Of a stretch of 64,000 nt of DNA, positions 32,935 through 62,928 are shown piece after piece. The position numbers and the translations under genes were made by a program. Positions within the stretch are counted from its first letter, which is position 1. Each line of letters opens with the position of its first letter. This DNA is from Haloglomus halophilum (GTDB taxonomy: Archaea; Halobacteriota; Halobacteria; Halobacteriales; Haloarculaceae). The notes beneath the pieces are model-generated. The model saw only the letters and a program-made list of their open reading frames with translations. It was not told the origin of the DNA and did no database searches. The stretch lies in assembly GCF_024298885.1 (NCBI RefSeq), contig NZ_CP101166.1:3223149-3287148 (forward strand), read 5' to 3'.

Positions 32935-32944
32935 GGTCGCCCGA

Positions 32945-33189
32945 TGCGCGGGACCGGATTTGAACCGGATCAAGACATTCCGGGCAGGCGGCGCTTCGCG
33001 CCGTTCCGGGCTGTGACTTGCAGGGTTGCAAATCCGGCCGTGCCCAGACACGTCTCTCACGTTCTTCGAGACGGTCATGCGCGGGACCGGATTTGAACCG
33101 GAGGAAGACGTGCTCACTTCGTTGCGCGCGTCTTCCAGGGTTCAAATCGGCCCTGCTCCTTCGCTCGGTCGCTACGCTCCCTCGCTCAG
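32945..33189 (-). repeat. Two foldback copies of the tRNA-Leu 3' end
   Basis: The last 24 bases of the tRNA-Leu gene (T-arm, 3' acceptor strand and discriminator) are repeated exactly at 32945-32968 and 33078-33101, in the tRNA's orientation. Each copy is paired with an inverted partial T-arm (33023-33045 and 33138-33153), so each ~75-100-base unit can fold on itself. The inner arms of the second unit also pair (GGAAGACG/CGTCTTCC). These are candidate att-site scars or a tRNA-derived structured repeat. Confidence 0.8.
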
Positions 33190-33273
33190 TGCGCGGGACC
33201 GGATTTGAACCGGCGGACTCCTACGAGACAAGGTCCTAAGCCTTGCGCCGTTTCCTGGCTTGGCTACCCGCGC
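33190..33273 (-). tRNA. tRNA-Leu (anticodon UAG)
   Basis: Full cloverleaf on the minus strand. The acceptor GCGCGGG pairs with CCCGCGC, with discriminator A. The D-arm GCC/GGC, the anticodon stem CAAGG/CCTTG around loop CTTAGGA (anticodon TAG) and a class II variable arm CTC/GAG are all present. The T-loop TTCAAAT is canonical. CCA is not encoded. No intron. Confidence 0.95.
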
Positions 33274-40717: not shown

Positions 40718-41215
40718 TCAGGATTCGTCGTCCGCTGCAGCGATGACATCCGCACGAAGTTCGTCGGATATCCAGAACCCCGCCTCGCGGAGGGCATCGA
40801 GTTCGGCCTCGATATCGAGGTTGCCGTGCTTTGCCTCGCGAAGAAGGATACCGATCACGCCTGTCACGGACAGGCCGTGCCGCCGCGCGACACGGCGACC
40901 ATCCCGCTCGTCGATCAGGAGCAAACCTGCCCCCTCGGTGACGGCGTAGCAGATTGCTGCTGTCTCGCCGATATCGAGTTCGTGGACAATCTCGACGAAG
41001 AGGTCGGACCGATCGACCGGAATGATCGTCAGGAACCCCTGCTCGCGTAGCTCTTGGAGCGCCTCCAGTCCCTCCTCACCCTCTGTGAGTTCGGTCCAGA
41101 CCTGCTCTGGGGCGGTGATACCTGAGAACTGTGACTCGAGAAGATCCAATCGGCCAATGAGCGCGAGGTTCAGTAGTGGAGACGTGTCGGCAACGATGAG
41201 CTCGTCACTGCGCAT
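40718..41215 (-). CDS. DUF3368 PIN-like toxin candidate
   Basis: A 165-aa protein with PIN-domain features: N-terminal Asp (IVADTSPLLNLALIG), a mid-protein Glu and Ala-rich helix (DIGETAAICYAVTEGAG) and the acidic LLIDERDGRRVARRHGL. DUF3368 proteins are commonly the RNase partner of UPF0175 antitoxins. The gene overlaps the UPF0175 gene by 11 bases, antitoxin first, as in toxin-antitoxin operons. Confidence 0.8.
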   Translation of the reverse strand: MRSDELIVADTSPLLNLALIGRLDLLESQFSGITAPEQVWTELTEGEEGLEALQELREQGFLTIIPVDRSDLFVEIVHELDIGETAAICYAVTEGAGLLLIDERDGRRVARRHGLSVTGVIGILLREAKHGNLDIEAELDALREAGFWISDELRADVIAAADDES

Positions 41216-41450
41216 ACTCGACATCCTCGGCGAGTTCCGACTCACCGTAGTGGCGGGGAATCTCGCGTTCGCCGAGGAGTTGCTGGAACTCTCGCTTCGA
41301 CATCCCGGCCAACGCGCGGGCCTTGCCGAACGAGAGCACGTCCTGGGAGTAGAGCGACACCGCCAGCTCCCGCTTCACCACCTCGGAGCGCTCACCCTCG
41401 GGAAGTTGGAGCGCCTCGTATACCTCGTCATCGATTTCTATGGTGGCCAT
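41205..41450 (-). CDS. UPF0175 antitoxin candidate
   Basis: An 81-aa protein with the UPF0175 pattern: N-terminal strand ATIEIDDEVYEALQLPEGER, then a helix-turn-helix around SFGKARALAGMSKREFQQLL and the end REIPRHYGESEL. It is predicted to bind DNA and neutralise the downstream PIN-like protein. Divergent from the PLD-NTPase gene. Confidence 0.82.
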   Translation of the reverse strand: MATIEIDDEVYEALQLPEGERSEVVKRELAVSLYSQDVLSFGKARALAGMSKREFQQLLGEREIPRHYGESELAEDVEYAQ

Positions 41451-41653: not shown

Positions 41654-44005
41654 ATGGAAGAGGTCACCGCCAACATATCGTTCGACCGGTTCGCGGACAT
41701 GCCGGAGTTCTACGGCTCCGGGGCAGCCAGCTACCGGCTCGCGATGGTGAAGCGGCGCGAGGACTTCCTTGACATCTTCGAGGGGGCCGCCCACGTCGAC
41801 GCCATCACCTACGCCGATACGCCCGAGCTGATGGTGCGGATGCTCACGGAGTACGACATCGGCTCCCTGGACGTCCTCGTGGGCAACGCGGATGACTACG
41901 CCGAACAGGTGAATGAGGTGGCGACGGCCCGGGAACTGGTCGACCTCCGCCAGCAGGACCGGCTGACCGTCCGCCTCAAGAACCAGAAGACGGTTCACTC
42001 GAAGATGTACCGCGTGGTGATGCCGGACGAGACGGTGAAACTCATCCACGGCTCGGCCAACCTCTCGGTTAACTCCTGGCAGTACCACACGAACCAGATC
42101 TCGGTCATCACGACGGAAGTCGGAACCGAACTGGACGAGGAGTTCCTCCAGTTTATCGACGAGTACCGCGAGACGTACAGCAGCCAAACGTTACTCGAGG
42201 GACTCGTCGAGGCGTTAGAGGAGGCGGATTCCAACGAGGAGCGCGAGGAACGCATCGAGTACTGGGTCGGAGCTGGCGACCTCGAGCTAAGCGACACGGC
42301 CGCCCTCAATCAGGACGCTATCGAGGACCTCGAGGAGGTAGCGGACCACGTGACCGCCGTCGTAGAGGATCCCGACGAGGCCGACGAGACGGTCGCGTTC
42401 GTGGAAGAACCGGAGAACGCCGACCGGTCTGTCGTCGAACCATCGGGAGCGGACAACGGCGACGGCACAACTGAGGCGTCTACCGACGACGATTCTGGTG
42501 AAGCCAACGACGGGGAACCAGAATCTGCTTCAGATGGAAACGAGCCGGCGGAGTCTCCCGACATCGGGCTGGTCGAGTCGGCACACGAGACGGGGCTGGG
42601 TGATTCCCTCGACCGTCCACGCGTTCGTGCCCCCGACCGACGCGTCCGTATCGGGACGAACCGGGTCGACCCAGACACCGCTGACGAGTTCGGGGCCAGC
42701 CTTCAGGACAAGGGCGCAACCGTCGAGGATCACTCCATCATGGCGCCACTCAGTGCCTACAACCAGCAGGTCAAGGAGTCCACGAAGATTCCGACGATGA
42801 CGGTGCTACCGGAATCGAATCAGGTGGTCATCGGGGAGAAAGAGGACATGATCCTAGTTGCGACGGAGTCGCCCGATCCGGAGGTTCTGGACCACTGCCT
42901 ATCGACGATAGAGGAGTACCTCGAGACAGTCGATGACCACGGCTACACACAGAACTCCGAGGCCATCATGGCGCAGATGTACGAGGCGTTCCTCTACGGG
43001 TTCTGGGCGCCGTTCGCCAACCAGTACGCGGAGAGCCTCTCATCGCCGTCACGGACCCTCGACAACGTCCTCCAGCACCTCTACATCCAGGGCAAGTCTG
43101 ACGCCGGAAAGGACAAGCTCACCGAGTACATCCTTCGACTGCTCTCGGACAACATGGTCACCTCTGGAGTCGATGGTGACAGCATCGGAGTGAAGGAAGT
43201 ACGGGGCGTCCGAGAGTGGGACACTTGCTTCCCGTACGCTATCATCGACGCGGAGAAGGACCGCATCGAGGACTGGGGAGCGATCCGGAACTACTGGAGT
43301 GACTGGACCCCAACCAGCGTCGACCAGCCTTGCCTCATCTTCACCACGAACGACGCACTCCCGAAGTCGGAGTTCCGCAATCGGATGAAGATCCTGAACA
43401 TGGATGTCTCCTTCCCATCGAACCCGGAGGACCCGGGCTTCCACGAGGCGCAGGAGGACTTGTCCGAGGTGCTGGAGCAGGAGAACCCCATCTTCTCATA
43501 CGTCGCACGTCGGATGGTTCGGGAGGAACCGTGGACCGACGGCACGGGCACGATTGAAGATGTCCGGCACATCCTCAACGACTTCTACGAGGAAGCAGAC
43601 CGCCCCAAGCCCGACTACTTCCCCGCCGAGAAGCCAGCCGAGAAGACGTACGACACTGGTCGGATGAAGTGGCAGCGAGACATCCGCGGCGGGAGGGTCA
43701 CCTTCGAGCCAGAGCCCGACGGAATCGAGGCGAAGTTCAAGCGAGAGAAGTACGAGGTGTTCGACTACGAAAAGCGCCTGAGCAAGCGATTCATGTCGGA
43801 TCAATCCGGCAGCGACGTATTCATCGGTGACCCCGAGGCGTTCGCCGAGTGGGTAGGCTACTCCGTGGACGAACTACTCGAAGGGGTCGCCGAACAGGCT
43901 GGTGAAGACGAGGATGAGCCAGAAGAAACCGGCCCTGAGGAGGCACAGAGCGACCAGTCGGAGGACAGCGGTGGCGGGTTGCTCTCCCGGTTGCTCGGCC
44001 GATAG
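41654..44005 (+). CDS. Phospholipase D-like nuclease fused to a P-loop NTPase
   Basis: A 783-aa protein. Residues ~30-180 form one PLD half-site: H115-x-K117 (VHSKMYR) and N136 (GSANLS). An acidic Ser/Asp/Glu-rich linker follows (about 230-320). Residues ~430-640 look like an AAA+/SF3-helicase-type ATPase: Walker A-like GKSDAGKDKL (480-489), Walker B-like YAIIDAEKD (528-536), sensor LIFTTND (561-567) and Arg residues R575/R577. The last ~140 residues are unassigned. One HKD half-site implies dimerisation. It is a predicted energy-dependent nuclease of a defence or mobile-element type; no known system is recognised. Start at ATG 41654. Confidence 0.72.
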   Translation: MEEVTANISFDRFADMPEFYGSGAASYRLAMVKRREDFLDIFEGAAHVDAITYADTPELMVRMLTEYDIGSLDVLVGNADDYAEQVNEVATARELVDLRQQDRLTVRLKNQKTVHSKMYRVVMPDETVKLIHGSANLSVNSWQYHTNQISVITTEVGTELDEEFLQFIDEYRETYSSQTLLEGLVEALEEADSNEEREERIEYWVGAGDLELSDTAALNQDAIEDLEEVADHVTAVVEDPDEADETVAFVEEPENADRSVVEPSGADNGDGTTEASTDDDSGEANDGEPESASDGNEPAESPDIGLVESAHETGLGDSLDRPRVRAPDRRVRIGTNRVDPDTADEFGASLQDKGATVEDHSIMAPLSAYNQQVKESTKIPTMTVLPESNQVVIGEKEDMILVATESPDPEVLDHCLSTIEEYLETVDDHGYTQNSEAIMAQMYEAFLYGFWAPFANQYAESLSSPSRTLDNVLQHLYIQGKSDAGKDKLTEYILRLLSDNMVTSGVDGDSIGVKEVRGVREWDTCFPYAIIDAEKDRIEDWGAIRNYWSDWTPTSVDQPCLIFTTNDALPKSEFRNRMKILNMDVSFPSNPEDPGFHEAQEDLSEVLEQENPIFSYVARRMVREEPWTDGTGTIEDVRHILNDFYEEADRPKPDYFPAEKPAEKTYDTGRMKWQRDIRGGRVTFEPEPDGIEAKFKREKYEVFDYEKRLSKRFMSDQSGSDVFIGDPEAFAEWVGYSVDELLEGVAEQAGEDEDEPEETGPEEAQSDQSEDSGGGLLSRLLGR

Positions 44006-44079: not shown

Positions 44080-45171
44080 TCAGAGACCCAGTTTGAAAAT
44101 CCGATCGCGATACTCCGACTCGACGTCCTCGTAGTAACTGTGGATGTAGTAGTCGATGCCGCCTGCTGACTCCCATCCACTAGTTCCCACGGTGTCTCCC
44201 CTCATGTATCGGATTAATTCACGGTTCATGTCCTCCTGAACACGCCAAAACGTGGTGAATCGATGTCGTCCGAAGTGCGATGTAACCCCTTGATGTTGTT
44301 CGGTTTCATCGTACTCTGGTCTGAAGTGCCGTTTCCATGCCGTATTCATGACCTCATCGTCGGTCTGTGTATTGCTCCGCTGGCTCAGGAACAGCCATGG
44401 CTCGCCGTTATCGGGCCGGATGAGGAGGTATCGAATGAGAATCCGTCGCAGCTCGTCGTCTATCGGGAGGACACGGGGACGTTTTGACTTGTTCCCCGAT
44501 CTGTCGTGGGGGATGTAGACGGCATCATCGTACTCACTGACGCGTGGTGCACTCCCCATCCGGTCGTAATGCTCCTGTACCTCCTGCTGGCGGATATTGA
44601 TCTCGCTGATCTTGATATTCGCAACTTCACTGGCCCTCAGTCCGAGCTTCAACTGCACCGCGATAATCGCCTGGTCGAAGATATGGTCCACGTCGGCCAG
44701 AATCTCACGAAGTCGGTCTAAGGATATCCGTGGAGGCTCTTTCACGCGTCCAGTCGAGAGGTCGACCTGGCGCTCAGCCAGTTTGAATGGATTGTAATCG
44801 ACCGAATGCGGGAATACGGAATCGTCCTGCCAGTACCGGTAGATTCGGTTCAGTCGAGTCAGCTTCTTGTTCGCTGTCCGTGGAGCGTTGTCGCGCTCCT
44901 CAAGTTCGATTTCGAGGAACCGTTTGACGTGGTCCTCGTTCGGACAGGTCGGCTGCCGACCCTGCTCAGCCATAAACTCCTTCCACTGCTGGATGACTCG
45001 TTCGTAGCCTCTTATCGTATCATCCGCCGGCCCGCTGGGCTCGAGATCGTTCTCGAAGAACGGCGCGAATGCGTCCTTCTTGAGTTCGCGGAACTTCTGA
45101 TCATACTGTTCGAGTGGATCGATTGTTTGACCGAATTTCTCTGCGATTTCTCTGCGTGTTTTGTCAGTCAT
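44080..45171 (-). CDS. Tyrosine-type site-specific integrase
   Basis: A 363-aa recombinase with an N-terminal SAM-like core-binding domain (about 50-115) and a catalytic domain. Catalytic residues visible are R179 (KLGLRASEVAN), a Lys near 230, H299-x-x-R302 (SHFGRHR) and a Tyr in GIDYYIHSYYED (Y341/342 or Y346/347). It is the last gene of a four-gene minus-strand operon starting at 46398, two bases after the preceding gene. Confidence 0.88.
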   Translation of the reverse strand: MTDKTRREIAEKFGQTIDPLEQYDQKFRELKKDAFAPFFENDLEPSGPADDTIRGYERVIQQWKEFMAEQGRQPTCPNEDHVKRFLEIELEERDNAPRTANKKLTRLNRIYRYWQDDSVFPHSVDYNPFKLAERQVDLSTGRVKEPPRISLDRLREILADVDHIFDQAIIAVQLKLGLRASEVANIKISEINIRQQEVQEHYDRMGSAPRVSEYDDAVYIPHDRSGNKSKRPRVLPIDDELRRILIRYLLIRPDNGEPWLFLSQRSNTQTDDEVMNTAWKRHFRPEYDETEQHQGVTSHFGRHRFTTFWRVQEDMNRELIRYMRGDTVGTSGWESAGGIDYYIHSYYEDVESEYRDRIFKLGL

Positions 45172-45173
45172 GG

Positions 45174-45677
45174 TTATCGCTTGTCGTTCTGTGAGAGCTT
45201 CTTCGCCCAGACCTCGCTGGGGTAGTCGTACTCGACGACCGCCATGTGTACTGGATGATAGACATGGGGATGCTCGGTATGCCAGAGCAGCCAGGAGTAG
45301 AACTCCTCTATCGGCTGGAAGTACTCGAAGTAGACCGTTTGGAGCTTCCGTGTGTGGCTCTGCCGCCCGATAGAACCGTCACGCAGCGCCCGGAGGAAGC
45401 CAGCGACGTGCTCAGGATCGCAGAGGGCGTGGTGCCGGTCGATGTCGCTCAGGTGGTCTGCAAGATACCGACCCGCTTTCTCGTACCGGGTTCGTGTCGC
45501 ATCTGAATCGAATTTCTCTGTCTTGACTTCGGCGAACTCCGCCCAGGTGTCCTCACCAGCGTAATCCCCCGCGTAGTTGGCGAGCTGGTACCGCTGTGGC
45601 ACCTGCTCGAGGCGCTTGTAGACCCCCATCCGGTCCTTGACATCTTGCGAGAGCGTACGCGCTGTTTCCCCCGTCAC
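45174..45677 (-). CDS. SAM-like core-binding domain protein of the integrase operon
   Basis: A 167-aa protein without catalytic residues. The central part (TRTRYEKAGRYLADHLSDID, then PEHVAGFLRAL and SHTRKLQTVYFEYFQPIEEF) reads like the N-terminal DNA-binding domain of phage integrases standing alone. It could help the integrase bind its arms or core. The GTG start overlaps the upstream stop (GTGA), and two bases separate it from the integrase gene. Confidence 0.7.
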   Translation of the reverse strand: MTGETARTLSQDVKDRMGVYKRLEQVPQRYQLANYAGDYAGEDTWAEFAEVKTEKFDSDATRTRYEKAGRYLADHLSDIDRHHALCDPEHVAGFLRALRDGSIGRQSHTRKLQTVYFEYFQPIEEFYSWLLWHTEHPHVYHPVHMAVVEYDYPSEVWAKKLSQNDKR

Positions 45678-46129
45678 TGCTGGCTCTCCTCTAGGCTGTT
45701 TGTTGCGAGGTGATAGCCGTCACCAGTCTGACGTAGCTTCAGTCCTTCCAGCTCTTCCAGGTGCTCCGTCACTCGACCAGGGACCGTGTTGATTACGTGC
45801 TGGACGATCTCTTCGTACGAGGCTCCAGGGTTGGCGCCGATGTACTCGAGTATTTCCTGCTGTTCGTCTCTGTAGAGCGCATCCTCGAGCTCCTGAATCC
45901 GTTCACGAGCGCGCTTCAGTTCATCTCGGAGGTTATTGCGCTGCTTCCGTAACTCTCGGACCTCGTCCCCTTCTGCCGTAGCGGGAGCATCGAACTTCTT
46001 CAGTCCAGCTTCAATCATGGCCTCGGCGAAGGCGGACCGAGAGCGGAACCCCAGTTCCTCGCATCGCGACTCCCAGCGTTCCATCTGCTCGTCACTGGGG
46101 TAGGTCGCGACCTGGTTCGTCTCCGTCAT
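45674..46129 (-). CDS. RHH / coiled-coil / winged-helix protein of the integrase operon
   Basis: A 151-aa protein. The N-terminal helices (SDEQMERWESRCEELGF, then SAFAEAMIEAGLKK) resemble a ribbon-helix-helix-like domain. A charged coiled coil spans about 55-90, followed by a C-terminal winged helix (EILEYIGANPGASYEEIVQH). It is probably the DNA-binding regulator or directionality factor of the recombinase cassette. Confidence 0.72.
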   Translation of the reverse strand: MTETNQVATYPSDEQMERWESRCEELGFRSRSAFAEAMIEAGLKKFDAPATAEGDEVRELRKQRNNLRDELKRARERIQELEDALYRDEQQEILEYIGANPGASYEEIVQHVINTVPGRVTEHLEELEGLKLRQTGDGYHLATNSLEESQQ

Positions 46130-52913: not shown

Positions 52914-54476
52914 TCAGCAGAGCATCAGATAGAACCAGTATGGCAGGTGTATCACCCCATCCTCGACGGCAATCGCTCGGTCGTCGCTGACTGTATCGCC
53001 GGTGAGCACGATCCCGAATGGGGCGTTGTAGCTGTCGACGAACTCACGGATGGGTGCCGTAGCCTCGTCCATTGGTGGGCGATAGGCCAGCCCGACGGGC
53101 ACGGGCGTGCCGTCGACCTCGAAGACGAAGTCGACCGTGCCGTCGCGTGCCCGCCAGAAGCTGACCGCGGGCGTGCTCTCGCCTCCCTGTGCGGCATCGA
53201 TTCCGTAGGCGAACCGCATCGTATGATCGAACGCGGCGACGCGAGCCAGCGCAGCCTCGCGGTCGAAATCACGTAGTACCGTCTCTGCGCCCCCATCAGT
53301 AAGCGCCGTGACCAGCCCCGTATCGCGCAAGTAGAGGCGAACTGATCTGGGACGGCTGTTGTCGTACTCGGTGACGCCGGTCAGGAGGTAGAGTTCCTCG
53401 AGGGCAGGGAGGTAGCTGTCCGTGAGCGTCCGGCGGTCGACATCGAAGAGGTCCGCCAACCGCTGGTACCGGACCGGCTCGGCACCGTGGTTGCGGGCGG
53501 CCAGCGCACACAGCCGCTCCAGATCGGCGATGGTCTGGACCGAATCGAAACCCGGGACATCTTGGTAGAGCGCGTCCCGGACATCCTCTCGAAGTTCGGT
53601 GTACGCACTCGCATCGAGAGCCGCTGCGGATTCGACCGGGCCGTCGAGCGCGTAACTGATTGTGCCGCCCATAGCGAGGTAGTGGACCACCTGTGACTGG
53701 ATGCGTCGTTCGACATCGGCTACCCGGTCGTACTGCGCCTGGAGGGTCGCTACGAGATTATCGAGATTCCCACTGTCGAGGGCCTTCGGCAGACTCCCTT
53801 CGCCCTCGCGAATCGGTGTCGGACTGACACGGGTGTCGCCGTCCTCGAGCTCCGGATACAGTGTGTAGATGTAATCTCGGAACTTCTCGGGTAGGATCGG
53901 CTGGGTTGCATAGTCGGAGTCGGCGATGTCGACCCGGTCGAGTTCGCGGTCGATCTGGATACCGGCGTTGGCGGTCACCACGATGTGCCGCTCGGGCCTT
54001 GCAGCCAGCATATCCGCGACCGGTGTCCCCCAGCCCTCTACGGTCGGTTTGCTTGGATGCTCGACGAGGTGGACGTCGTCGAGGAACACGAACTGTGGTG
54101 TCGGATCGTCGGCCCGGCCGAGGATGCGGCTCTCGTAGTAGCGGATGGCTTGTCGGAGGCCCTCATCGGACCGGAGCTGGTAGAGTGGATCCGCGTCGAA
54201 GGGTATGTAGCAGAACTGCTCCGGGGCCGCTCCTTGGTCGATACTATGGTGGATGAACTGCTTGATAAGCGTGGTCTTGCCGACACCACGACGGCCGACG
54301 AGCCCGAGAAGTCGCTGATCCTCGAACTGGCTGTCGGGCTGATCGGGCCGGGCCAGATGGTAGAAGTCACTCTTGGTGCGGGCGGGCAACTCGATGGTAT
54401 CCGCCCCGGAGTCCCACCAAGGGTTGTGCTCGCCGAGCGCTCGGAGGAGCGCGTCTCCGCCCGCGTCGAACGACAT
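52914..54476 (-). CDS. AAA ATPase with DUF4143-like C-terminal domain
   Basis: A 520-aa protein. Walker A GRRGVGKTTL (about 61-70), Walker B FVFLDDVHL (about 128-136), sensor HIVVTANAG, then the YATQPILPEKFRDYI segment typical of DUF4143-type archaeal ATPases. A winged helix lies at about 325-375 (ADLFDVDRRTLTDSYLPALE). The C-terminal nuclease-like domain keeps FWRARDGTVDFVFEVDG but lacks the usual EVK lysine (VPVGLAY). Predicted DNA-dependent ATPase of a mobile element or defence type. A remnant second copy is at 49133-49301. Confidence 0.82.
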   Translation of the reverse strand: MSFDAGGDALLRALGEHNPWWDSGADTIELPARTKSDFYHLARPDQPDSQFEDQRLLGLVGRRGVGKTTLIKQFIHHSIDQGAAPEQFCYIPFDADPLYQLRSDEGLRQAIRYYESRILGRADDPTPQFVFLDDVHLVEHPSKPTVEGWGTPVADMLAARPERHIVVTANAGIQIDRELDRVDIADSDYATQPILPEKFRDYIYTLYPELEDGDTRVSPTPIREGEGSLPKALDSGNLDNLVATLQAQYDRVADVERRIQSQVVHYLAMGGTISYALDGPVESAAALDASAYTELREDVRDALYQDVPGFDSVQTIADLERLCALAARNHGAEPVRYQRLADLFDVDRRTLTDSYLPALEELYLLTGVTEYDNSRPRSVRLYLRDTGLVTALTDGGAETVLRDFDREAALARVAAFDHTMRFAYGIDAAQGGESTPAVSFWRARDGTVDFVFEVDGTPVPVGLAYRPPMDEATAPIREFVDSYNAPFGIVLTGDTVSDDRAIAVEDGVIHLPYWFYLMLC

Positions 54477-58562: not shown

Positions 58563-59981
58563 GTGACGGGACCGCGCTATATTTTCTCCGGGCAGCCCAC
58601 GAGCGGGGAGCGAAGCCAGCTACTGCGGCCACGGATGCTCGATGAGTACGCCACACCCAACGTCGGCATGATCATGTACGGCTTTTTCTGGGTGAAATAC
58701 GGCCTCTGGCTCAAAGCACAGGGGCTGGATCCCACAGCGCAGTCGGAGCTCCTACTGTGGGTGGAGCAGTCTGATGGATCGATCGAACCAGCCGCTGGAG
58801 CCCTCTATTATTCACTCTTGCTGGTGTATGCGAATGAATCGGCGAGCAATATCCCGGGGCGAAATATCACCAAAGGCTGGATCTTTGCGAAACAACCCTC
58901 CGGGGTCGATCACTATGCAACGGCGGTCCGGAAACTGGACGCGCTAGCGGATGCGCCAGCCAGTGTCGATGGGGAAGCGTTCGTCGAGGCGGTGATCGCC
59001 CCCTGGCTTCGGACTCGGTGTGAAGAGGCAGACATCGATCTCGCAGCACGTTTTGAGGCCGAACTAGCGCCGGCAGTGCAGGCAGAGTACGAAACTGAGC
59101 AGGCTCGATTCGAGGCGTCTCTGGCGGCGTTTACGACAGTGCTTGGGGAGATCTTCAACGCGAATCAATCGTTGCACGAGGGGCATAACACCACCCCGAT
59201 CGACCAGCCATTCGATATCTCGAACATGCTGTGGGCGGCCGCCGCGCCCGAGGGCACAGCACTGGCAAACGACACGGTCCAGATCACTCAGGCCGATGTG
59301 ACGGCCCTCTTTTCGTTGCTTGAGCAATTCGAACAGGGGCGCCGAATGCTGCATTCGTTCATCTTCTTCGGCTATCTCGGGGCGGACCACACCGATGCAG
59401 ATACGGTCCGGGAGATCTTCGCGCTCTGCCGGGCGCAACCGACGGCACTCATCGAGGGAGCTGCGACGCACTATTCGTATACCTTCGATCCACAGATCAG
59501 CGAAGAGATCATCGAGACGAGCTTTGTCTATGAGGTAAACTACATCCTGGCCGAAGCGGAGACGATCGCCCGGAAGCTCCTTGCAGAGCACTCCCAGCAG
59601 ATCTCGCTCCAAGCTGTCGAGGAGTTTTTCGAGGAACGCCGCGGTGACCTGCCGATTGATCAATATGAACGATTCGTCGCTTGGCAAGCGCCAGTCGAAA
59701 CGTATCTCCCGTGGCTGATCGAGCGATATGCGGACACAGGGGAGGATGAGGATGTCGTCGCAGTGCTTGAGATCCTCGAGCGAGGCGTAGCCGAAGGCCG
59801 GTCACCAGCAGCGCTGCTCATTGACCTGCTCACGGATCGTGGTGTTCTGGAGCCGTTCGAGTTCGCGCCAGAGACATACAAGGTGCTTCGGTCCCCGTCA
59901 ACTGAATCGTCGGCGACATTCTACGGCGTCGGGTCAATGGAAGACTACGCAGCAGAACTCATGGAGGCCACCCATGAGTGA
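58563..59981 (+). CDS. Helical protein of unknown family, first gene of the PLD unit
   Basis: A 472-aa soluble protein, mostly alpha-helical, with no recognised domain or catalytic motif and no cysteine cluster. It starts with GTG, and a TATA-like CTATTTATCC lies about 35 bases upstream, fitting a leaderless transcript. Its stop overlaps the start of the 984-aa PLD protein (ATGAGTGA), so the two products are made together. Possible roles are sensor, adaptor or inhibitor of the nuclease; all are inference. Confidence 0.72.
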   Translation: MTGPRYIFSGQPTSGERSQLLRPRMLDEYATPNVGMIMYGFFWVKYGLWLKAQGLDPTAQSELLLWVEQSDGSIEPAAGALYYSLLLVYANESASNIPGRNITKGWIFAKQPSGVDHYATAVRKLDALADAPASVDGEAFVEAVIAPWLRTRCEEADIDLAARFEAELAPAVQAEYETEQARFEASLAAFTTVLGEIFNANQSLHEGHNTTPIDQPFDISNMLWAAAAPEGTALANDTVQITQADVTALFSLLEQFEQGRRMLHSFIFFGYLGADHTDADTVREIFALCRAQPTALIEGAATHYSYTFDPQISEEIIETSFVYEVNYILAEAETIARKLLAEHSQQISLQAVEEFFEERRGDLPIDQYERFVAWQAPVETYLPWLIERYADTGEDEDVVAVLEILERGVAEGRSPAALLIDLLTDRGVLEPFEFAPETYKVLRSPSTESSATFYGVGSMEDYAAELMEATHE

Positions 59982-62928
59982 ATCGGCCCCGTCGATCCTC
60001 GGCGCGATTGAGGAGGAGTTTCAGGATGACCTCCAGACAGAGCGGTTTTCCCAATATCTCTTCCTGACGTGGAGTGTCGACGCAGACTACCTGCGGGGAT
60101 TCGCTGCCGATGACGAGGTCGTCATTTGTGGACCAGACAGCGTCGGGGAAACAGTCGAAGGCCTTGACCAGCCGAATCTCTCCTGGGAGTATCTCGACTC
60201 ACATGCAAAATGCTACCTCATGTGGGGCGAAGACCGGCTTCGCTGTTGGGTGGGGTCGTTCAATCTCACGCCGAGCGCGCTGCGAGATACTCTGGAATGG
60301 GCTGTCGTTCAGGAAGCGCCGTTGGACACGTCGCTGTCGCTGGAGGAGCTCCAGGATGGAACCTGTGACCCAGCTGCGGTCACGACAGATAGCCTCCTCC
60401 AGCAAGTCCTGGCACTTGTCATGGGGGTCCTCACCGCCTCAGAACCGACGCTTGCGACCGACTATCGCAACACCGCTCGTGAGGCGGGGCCGATCGCCCT
60501 CACGAACGGTGCAACTCCCGGGCCAAACGGCCTGCATGCAGCTGTTGAGACTGCATTGGACCGTGCCGACGGAGCGGTCTCCCTGACCTACTACACCCCG
60601 TTCGTGAATCAATCCGGCGTCGAGTTCCTTGCTGAGGCCGTCCCTGAACAGATCCCGCCTGACGAGCGCCACATTCAGATTCGGACCTGTCGAATCACCG
60701 AAGTCGATAGTCAGTCGACGTATTTGAGCCAGGAGGAACTCGACGCGCTGGATCACACCTACGGATCAGTCGATCTCCAAGCACGAGCCTCGGGGACGGC
60801 TGGTGAGACACTCCCCGGCAATGAGACACTTCGCTCTGGCTTTGCGCATTTCAAGCTGCTCCTGCTCTCCTATACCGATCACCAGGGCGAGGATCACACA
60901 GAGCTCCTGTTTACCTCGGCAAACCTGACTGCCAATGCCTGGCGGCCAGGTGCCACCCAGCTCGAATTCGGGCTGTGGGTCCGAGATCCAACCGTCGCAG
61001 CCCCCCTCGCCGAGTTCTTTGGGACTCAACTGAGCCGGTGTTACTCACGGCCGAACCAGACTGACTTCGATACGGTTGAGCGGCTTGAATCGATGACGGA
61101 TCTGCTTACGGAGTCGTCGATCCTGGATCGCCTGACAGACCGACTGCGGGTCGAAAAGCGAGGCATCGTCGTTGACTGGGCATCGACTGAGCCGACGCTC
61201 TCAACGTTCGAAGCGACGATCTTCCTTCGAGAGGTGGCCGGCACCGACACGCGGCACGAACCAACGACGCTTGTCCGGGAGGGGACTGAATTCGTGAGTG
61301 ACTTCGACCCCGGTGAGCTTGACCCGGGCTGGGTGATCGATCGGATTCAGCTCGCCGTAACCACCCGCTGCCGGCCGATCGAGTATACCCTCTCGGATCG
61401 TGGACTGGACGAACTGGTGACACCCGGGTCGATCGACGAAACACGCCAGGCTGTGACTGCTGAGTTGGAGACGCGGGAGATCACGGCGGCTGAAATCGTG
61501 GTGAATGACGAGCACATCATCCGAGGAGCGGCTGGTGAATGGCCCTCCGTGCCGGAGATCGACACACTGCGAATCAGACAGGAATTCGATGGCGAGCCGC
61601 GCGTGTTTCGGCCCACTGTTGTGGCCCCAGCACAGCCACACCTCCCCGACGCGCCCATTGCAGCGAGTTCTGCATCGGCGATTGAGACCGACCGGTTTGG
61701 CGGGCTCTGCCAAATCACGATCACGCCTGTCGAGGGGATCCAGCTGGACTATGACATGCTCGTGTTCACCAGCGAGGAAACTGGTGCCATTGACTGGCTC
61801 GGCTATGCGGCCACGGACCAGGGACTCACGTATTTCGTCGACAGTTCGGTCGCCGGCGAGACCGTCACGGCGACGCTAAAAGAGCCATACGCAGCGTATT
61901 ATGACGAGGCTCCCCGGCAGGTGACCGTGGAGTGTCCCCCGGAGATCTCGTCCACAGCTACGCAATTACGCACCCTGCATCGGGATCCCACCTATCAATT
62001 CTCCCACCACCCCCGTCTTTCCGAGGCGGGCACTGACACCGACACTGCCGAGGCGTATATCACACCTGGGGTCCCCGTTGGGATTACACCGCCACCGGAG
62101 ATTGCGGCGCTCAACGAGCAGGATGCCATTCAGCTGGGGGCTGACTGGAACCGGCGCGGCGGCACGTACGCCCCGCCGACACGGATGTCGCTCGAGGAGA
62201 CGATCACACCGGTAAGTGCCCACAGCCGGATCGTCTATCGTGGCTCCCTCACAACCGAGCTTGCAGGCCACGCAGTCACCTTCCATACACCGCCGAATGA
62301 GTTCCAGGTCAATCAGCAGGTCTTCGCGAGCGGCGCCACGCCTGACTCACGGGCTGTCTCTGCGATCGATCTCGATGCGCTCAGCGCGGATGCCCACGCG
62401 AATTGGCTCGCGTTCGAGGCCGATGAGATCCTTCGGCCGAGTGTCGTGTTGGGGCCAGACCGCTCGATCGAGATGCGCGTCACAGTCGGCGATGACCGCT
62501 ACGACACGTCACAGCGGTATCCCGTCTATAGTGGTGAGCAGCTATTCTTGATTCCGCTGTTTGGGCGCCATCTCGATGTCGGGGACACAACCCGACTGCT
62601 CCTGCAGTGCTCGATCGCGAATGGGCCAGCAACCTATGGTTCGGCCGCGCTCAGCACGGAGCTCTCATATGATCGACAATCGAACGGCCTCCAGCAGCTC
62701 ATCACCGATTCGACTGGCAAGCGGCGACAAGCCGTCCCGATTGCCGATCAGCCAGGCACGAAACTGCCCAGCCTTGATCGCTATCGAGACTTCATTCATG
62801 GAAACGACTTAGAGAGTTATCTCGAGGCGAATCCCGCATTCCGAGTCGATGAGCGAACGGCGACGACGCTCGTAATTGAAGCGCTCGACACCACGGTCCT
62901 GCATCTCGGACCGTATCCGACGGGGTAG
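59974..62928 (+). CDS. Large protein with two PLD (HKD) half-sites
   Basis: A 984-aa protein. Half-site 1: H77-x-K79 (DSHAKCYL) with N97 (GSFNLT). Half-site 2: H292-x-K294 (FAHFKLLLL) with N317 (TSANLT). The Asp of the classical HxKx4D is absent from both, as in several PLD-type nucleases. About 640 residues follow that look beta-rich and repeat-like and match no family I recognise. One protein thus carries a full bilobal PLD site. Predicted DNase/RNase effector. Translationally coupled to the 472-aa gene. Confidence 0.75.
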   Translation: MSESAPSILGAIEEEFQDDLQTERFSQYLFLTWSVDADYLRGFAADDEVVICGPDSVGETVEGLDQPNLSWEYLDSHAKCYLMWGEDRLRCWVGSFNLTPSALRDTLEWAVVQEAPLDTSLSLEELQDGTCDPAAVTTDSLLQQVLALVMGVLTASEPTLATDYRNTAREAGPIALTNGATPGPNGLHAAVETALDRADGAVSLTYYTPFVNQSGVEFLAEAVPEQIPPDERHIQIRTCRITEVDSQSTYLSQEELDALDHTYGSVDLQARASGTAGETLPGNETLRSGFAHFKLLLLSYTDHQGEDHTELLFTSANLTANAWRPGATQLEFGLWVRDPTVAAPLAEFFGTQLSRCYSRPNQTDFDTVERLESMTDLLTESSILDRLTDRLRVEKRGIVVDWASTEPTLSTFEATIFLREVAGTDTRHEPTTLVREGTEFVSDFDPGELDPGWVIDRIQLAVTTRCRPIEYTLSDRGLDELVTPGSIDETRQAVTAELETREITAAEIVVNDEHIIRGAAGEWPSVPEIDTLRIRQEFDGEPRVFRPTVVAPAQPHLPDAPIAASSASAIETDRFGGLCQITITPVEGIQLDYDMLVFTSEETGAIDWLGYAATDQGLTYFVDSSVAGETVTATLKEPYAAYYDEAPRQVTVECPPEISSTATQLRTLHRDPTYQFSHHPRLSEAGTDTDTAEAYITPGVPVGITPPPEIAALNEQDAIQLGADWNRRGGTYAPPTRMSLEETITPVSAHSRIVYRGSLTTELAGHAVTFHTPPNEFQVNQQVFASGATPDSRAVSAIDLDALSADAHANWLAFEADEILRPSVVLGPDRSIEMRVTVGDDRYDTSQRYPVYSGEQLFLIPLFGRHLDVGDTTRLLLQCSIANGPATYGSAALSTELSYDRQSNGLQQLITDSTGKRRQAVPIADQPGTKLPSLDRYRDFIHGNDLESYLEANPAFRVDERTATTLVIEALDTTVLHLGPYPTG

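Follow-up and report, generated by a model that had tools for sequence, protein, structure and literature searches.

In haloarchaea, Argonaute is co-transcribed with the PLD protein AgaP, for which an N-terminal PLD domain has been described; AgaP is toxic by itself, with residues H105, K107, G157, S158 and N160 required, and it is through AgaP that the APAP system restricts plasmids (Cheng et al., 2024; PMC11442185). The toxicity of AgaP by itself and its restriction of plasmids together with pAgo were demonstrated with the Natrinema pellirubrum protein only. In the main text of that paper the word 'ATPase' is absent and 'helicase' refers to other proteins. PLD and Cas4 proteins were also noted in pAgo operons in a 2018 survey. 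A single-HKD PLD nuclease fold likewise serves defence in NgoAVII, SauUSI, BfiI and DISARM DrmC. The PLD domain of SauUSI is paired with an SF2-type ATPase, and we know of no SF3/D5-type domain in any of these systems. Here we describe an AgaP relative encoded in a 64,000-nucleotide stretch of the Haloglomus halophilum contig NZ_CP101166.1 (assembly GCF_024298885.1; the window, below), in which such a nuclease is joined to a predicted AAA+ domain.

The window gene and the AgaP family

The frame at 41654-44005 (+) gives a stop-free translation of 783 aa, and its start is preferred over that of a longer ORF from 41573 because all close homologues have a Met aligned with the window ATG, mostly within the sequence MDELTANISF. 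The N-terminal part of the protein is a single-HKD PLD nuclease, which an acidic linker joins to a P-loop ATPase domain, and the C-terminus is formed by a conserved tail. Identity of the window copy is 70-77 % with 35 close homologues and 27-42 % with 11 more distant ones. Its features are as follows.

41654..44005 (+): orphan AgaP-family protein, 783 aa, with a PLD and a probable SF3/D5-type AAA+ domain
41723..42223 (+): PLD-family nuclease domain, residues ~24-190 (Pfam RE_NgoFVII/PLDc_2; Foldseek)
41996..42004 (+): HxK catalytic half, H115/K117, (nearly) invariant; equivalent to H105/K107 of Natrinema pellirubrum AgaP
42050..42061 (+): GSxN catalytic half, G133/S134/N136, (nearly) invariant; equivalent to G157/S158/N160 of N. 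pellirubrum AgaP
42371..42613 (+): acidic linker, residues ~240-320, predicted disordered (pLDDT 27-38 over most of 250-319) and variable in length
42617..43039 (+): conserved alpha/beta stretch and helical bundle ahead of the AAA+ core, residues 322-462
43061..43603 (+): P-loop ATPase domain, predicted SF3/D5-type AAA+ fold, residues ~470-650 (AF2 model; Foldseek against PDB and viral models)
43091..43120 (+): Walker A, GKSDAGKDKL (480-489), with altered GKDK
43229..43249 (+): Walker B, FPYAIID (526-532), first Asp of DD lost
43328..43351 (+): sensor 1 or SF3 motif C-like PCLIFTTN, N566 invariant
43382..43390 (+): R577 and K579, putatively arginine-finger-like
43604..43891 (+): C-terminal alpha/beta domain, residues 651-746
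43973..44002 (+): C-terminal tail GGLLSRLLGR, a G-h-h-x-R motif behind an acidic disordered stretch

A preliminary description of this DNA had noticed one HKD half-site (H115/K117/N136), and it is indeed present; homologues, instead of lacking the HxK and N residues, keep them invariant or nearly so (34 aligned homologues). Pfam RE_NgoFVII matches residues 62-168 above its cut-off (E-value 1.7e-6), and the Foldseek matches of the domain include 4rct (the NgoAVII R-protein, 7.5e-7), 7clg (SauUSI) and 1byr (Nuc), so that the protein has both the PLD fold and the HKD motif by which the PLD superfamily is defined. A single HKD half-site requires a dimer to complete the active site, as in Nuc and BfiI, and with one HxK and one GSxN per chain the window protein would need to dimerize likewise.

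The link to AgaP comes from locus L124, which lies on N. pellirubrum plasmid pNATPE02, adjoins a Piwi gene and was matched by tblastn at NC_019963 121399-123444 (E-value 3e-61). Counted from its Met, the L124 protein has H105, K107, E112, G119-S120, D122 and GSPN at 157-160, in agreement with the published AgaP numbering, and it falls within the family in both alignment and tree. On residue numbering, plasmid and Piwi neighbour together, L124 is AgaP, and the window protein is a member of the AgaP family. The likeness to the AgaP of the APAP system (PMC11442185) extends over the full length, with the HxK and GSxN halves in common and an AAA+-like C-terminal half also in L124; the window copy differs in having no adjacent pAgo, in lacking a long insertion between HxK and GSxN, and in carrying GKDK and ID where N. 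pellirubrum AgaP has GKGT and DD.

The family was found in 104 of 392 Halobacteria genomes and in 28 of the 145 genomes of relatives searched, and scanning 84,980 species genomes gave 31 loci, all haloarchaeal by record titles. It is present in 22 of 72,556 plasmid records; neither a search of 50,697 phage records nor an IMG/VR scan yielded a member. Three copies (L055, L056 and L037) are disrupted, whether by a frameshift, a truncation or stop codons, which suggests frequent loss. We note also two highly diverged AgaP-like proteins whose branches are long (L154 and L155; 1.6-1.7 changes per column), in whose vicinity there is no recognized defence partner, except for a p387-type gene adjoining L155.

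The GhhxR tail ends 79 of the 85 AgaP copies; G775 and R779 are invariant, and the pLDDT of the tail is below 40. When the tail was sought in other proteins (~1,700 frames of the loci), no convincing case was found beyond the AgaP copies. As it is present both with and without Argonaute, its ligand is probably something other than Argonaute itself.

The ATPase half and its motif change

In the preliminary description the PLD nuclease was followed by a P-loop ATPase with the motif order of SF3 or D5 helicases, a proposal with which both the fold search and the order of motifs agree. The AlphaFold2 model of residues 322-746, built from 33 family members, has a pLDDT of 85 and a pTM of 0.86 and, far from lacking a P-loop fold, matches AAA+ helicases. 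The top Foldseek match in the PDB is the SCCmec Cch helicase (5dgk, 7.9e-5), followed by the NrS-1 CTR, and the top 50 include RFC, RuvB, the SV40 and JC T antigens, papillomavirus E1 and parvovirus B19 NS1. The viral library gave 85 models below 1e-3 which, where named, are mainly primase-helicases and SF3 helicases. The TM-scores are low (0.2-0.4) and RFC and RuvB nearly equal SF3 proteins in score, so that 'AAA+' is a firmer assignment than 'SF3'; both of our structure models were built on shallow alignments. On the model, an AAA+ fold for residues ~470-650 is well supported and descent of the ATPase half from the SF3/D5 lineage is likely. Residues 322-462 may correspond in position to the helical oligomerization domain of SF3 helicases.

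Sequence comparisons are less telling. Nothing significant was found for the ATPase half in Pfam (which gave no helicase match), PHROGs, NCBIfam or PADLOC, and searches of PDB sequences with the single sequence and with profiles gave unconvincing matches only. In an HMM comparison of the kind that the preliminary description had proposed, hhalign to haloarchaeal DUF5906 helicases gave probabilities of 46-62 % over 29-67 columns, against less than 1 % for shuffled controls, a merely suggestive result that almost vanishes when the GKDK rows alone are used and that is equalled by a P-loop-only match to Rad50. Seven residues (G480, G485, K486, D532, N566, R577 and K579) vary little or not at all, even at ~27 % identity; R577 is invariant and K579 nearly so in the wider alignment, and both are invariant among the close homologues.

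The predicted fold resembles that of the SF3/D5 helicases (SCCmec Cch, NrS-1 CTR, SV40 T antigen, papillomavirus E1 and DUF5906 phage primases), and the motifs follow in the same order: Walker A, Walker B (hydrophobic-DD where Walker A has GKG), a motif C-like TSN and an Arg-rich element. Unlike these helicases, the AgaP domain is fused to a PLD nuclease rather than to a primase or origin-binding domain, and no Ser or Thr stands directly after the Walker A Lys: the window copy has GKD and other members GKG, which is also found (as GKGT) in some haloarchaeal DUF5906 helicases. The acidic Walker B pair, DD in the GKG clades, is absent from the window copy (IID), the first Asp having been lost from its clade. 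This ATPase domain of AgaP is apparently new to description.

The motifs could be scored in the 84 of 85 AgaP copies that cover them. A GKDK Walker A is present in 41, all belonging to the clade of the window copy, and their Walker B is IID in 36 and VSD in five; the remaining 43 copies have GKG[T/M] together with an hDD Walker B. In a tree built without the motif columns the GKDK copies form one side of a single branch (SH-aLRT 100) and require one change. The altered motifs therefore represent one evolutionary event, and the joint change of Walker A and Walker B is not independent evidence. The preliminary description had seen a Walker A threonine replaced by aspartate: the GKD is real and found in 41 of 41 members of the clade, but the wider family has GKG[T/M] rather than GK[S/T], so that in the window clade Asp replaces the Gly and Lys the Thr or Met that follows. 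With a dN/dS of ~0.04-0.06 in the ATPase domain of the GKDK copies, purifying selection is strong and the domain is not decaying. Since two motifs for holding Mg-ATP have been replaced in a fixed manner, the ring of this clade is most likely a scaffold or a sensor of nucleotide state rather than a translocating motor, and ATP hydrolysis would have been lost from it.

Gene neighbourhoods

Within ~10 kb of AgaP four layouts recur: a gene for an AAA14/DUF4143 protein divergent from a pAgo-AgaP-686aa-PDDEXK-UvrD/PDDEXK run (AddAB-like); Mre11-Rad50-NurA-HerA with AgaP ahead or behind; pAgo-AgaP alone; and AgaP by itself or in the vicinity of a methyltransferase gene, an HVO_2833-like regulator and a nucleotidyltransferase-like gene. 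A pAgo gene on the same strand lies 37-67 bp from AgaP in 15 loci and at 250 bp or less in 21, and one is found within ~10 kb of 24 of the 43 GKG copies as against two of the 41 GKDK copies. In the loci L033-L036 and L137-L146, though not in each of them, pAgo-AgaP is followed at ~9 bp by the gene for the 686-aa protein and then by those for a PDDEXK nuclease and a UvrD-PDDEXK protein, so that an AddAB/RecBCD-like enzyme is included in the Argonaute operon itself. An operon-like run of Mre11-Rad50-NurA-HerA-AgaP is seen in L062, L081, L031, L060 and L142, with pAgo coming after it in L060 and L142.

The genes of this second run are a divergent copy of the set encoding the archaeal Mre11-Rad50-HerA-NurA end-resection complex. 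Unlike that complex, the set linked to AgaP in many genomes is sporadic and has AgaP added: its NurA occurs in 40 of the 392 genomes, 28 of which also have AgaP, 18 within ~13 kb (Fisher 1.3e-9, a value that ignores the kinship of the genomes). The survey of neighbours suggested in the preliminary description, integrases versus defence genes, thus finds the homologues in defence operons with Argonaute, AddAB-like enzymes or Mre11-Rad50-NurA-HerA.

Beside the window gene there is neither an Argonaute gene nor the Mre11-HerA module, whose NurA is absent from the window's genome. The sole Piwi gene of this genome is unlinked, on another contig (C3:24764-25222), and encodes a pAgo-like protein of 755 aa that is 30-32 % identical to the AgaP-linked pAgos; with no pAgo in the window, we refer to an AgaP-family protein and not to an APAP system. 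Its neighbours are the following.

40718..41450 (-): toxin-antitoxin-like pair (DUF3368 PIN-type, UPF0175)
44080..46129 (-): tyrosine integrase (44080-45171; Pfam PF00589, E-value 1.5e-9; PHROG integrase) and two small ORFs (45174-45677 and 45674-46129)

The integrase has no match among the phage records, and it and the small ORFs are thought to be neighbours with no part in the function; their relatives recur beside only one other AgaP copy (L079, 12684-15992), in another order and orientation. The window gene lies in a stretch of lower G+C content (~0.57 against 0.69) that begins about where synteny with three genomes of the same genus ends (39.34 kb). The right end of this island was not located, and the genes that flank the left breakpoint in the relatives lie elsewhere in the window's genome, so that the breakpoint may reflect a rearrangement rather than the end of an insertion.

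Some other features of the window may be mentioned. A tRNA-Leu gene (33189-33273, -) lies within 32944-33273, where its 33-nt 3′-end sequence is repeated at 33077 and 32944 in a manner resembling tandem integration scars. An AAA_14/DUF4143 ATPase is encoded at 52914-54476; most pAgo-AgaP operons of haloarchaea have a gene of this type upstream, in divergent orientation. A second PLD-type protein (59821-62925, a 1035-aa frame) has two HKD-like motifs (HAKCYLMWG..GSFNLT and HFKLLLL..TSANLT) and no similarity to AgaP by blastp.

Proposed role and alternatives

The reading that we favour, and consider probable, is that the window gene is an orphan AgaP, a haloarchaeal defence nuclease whose ring domain acts as scaffold or sensor and whose targeting depends on a factor other than Argonaute. 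The PLD domain would dimerize and cut invading extrachromosomal DNA, and the C-terminal SF3/D5-type AAA+ domain would assemble the protein as a ring, recruiting or gating the nuclease. ATP hydrolysis may be possible in the Argonaute-linked branches, which keep GKG[T/M] and a DD Walker B, and the window branch (GKDK, with ID or SD) would provide a ring scaffold or nucleotide-state sensor. The targeting carried out by Argonaute in the published system would here fall to another factor: in those genomes where Mre11-Rad50-NurA-HerA genes are linked, perhaps their end-processing complex, and elsewhere perhaps a host factor to which the conserved C-terminal tail binds. As a tentative conjecture for the GKDK clade as a whole, it could be a conserved pseudo-ATPase SF3/D5 ring that has passed from motor to sensor or scaffold, within an Argonaute-independent defence nuclease under a divergent Mre11-Rad50-NurA-HerA complex or under a shared factor to which the GhhxR tail binds.

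The preliminary description had envisaged instead a motor-coupled nuclease working as a multimer, or a protein that nicks with its PLD domain and initiates the replication of a mobile element. The multimer is plausible, given that an HKD half-site needs a dimer and that SF3 domains form rings. The motor is doubtful for the window member: K486, D532, N566, R577 and K579 are kept throughout, GKGT does occur in some DUF5906 helicases and dN/dS is low, all of which would suit a working SF3-like ATPase with a non-standard P-loop that feeds DNA to the PLD nuclease, but its clade is changed at two positions that usually serve in handling Mg-ATP, the one following K486 and the first Asp of Walker B, and we regard this possibility as unlikely. 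The replication or mobilization protein of an integrated element, nicking with its PLD domain and unwinding with its SF3 domain, was rejected on context and seems extremely improbable to us. SF3/D5 domains are typical of replication proteins and an integrase gene adjoins, but the family's operons are of the defence type, phage and IMG/VR matches are absent, plasmid occurrences are rare, the integrase has relatives beside a single other copy in a different order, and AgaP, the family member studied by experiment, acts as a defence nuclease (PMC11442185).

It could also be argued that the window protein has remained a partner of Argonaute, as in APAP, and acts in trans with the unlinked pAgo. 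The 755-aa Piwi protein is a candidate, pAgo lies within 10 kb at two GKDK loci, and Piwi genes are present in nine of ~44 GKDK-type genomes versus 14 of the 288 that lack AgaP (Fisher P 0.001, kinship ignored). However, defence genes co-accumulate, which inflates such co-occurrence, and about 80 % of the GKDK-type genomes have no detectable Piwi gene, so we rate partnership in trans as quite improbable, and prefer the orphan AgaP with another targeting factor.

The plasmid-restricting nuclease of haloarchaeal Argonaute immunity thus appears to hold a viral-type AAA+ ring domain that is unmentioned in the published account (PMC11442185), and many of its relatives are free of Argonaute and linked instead to DNA-end-processing complexes. 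This suggests ways, open to test, in which a nuclease with a toxicity of its own may be controlled, through the nucleotide state of the ring or a partner bound by the tail, and it marks a clade in which the ATPase motifs have been rewritten and yet remain under strong selection.
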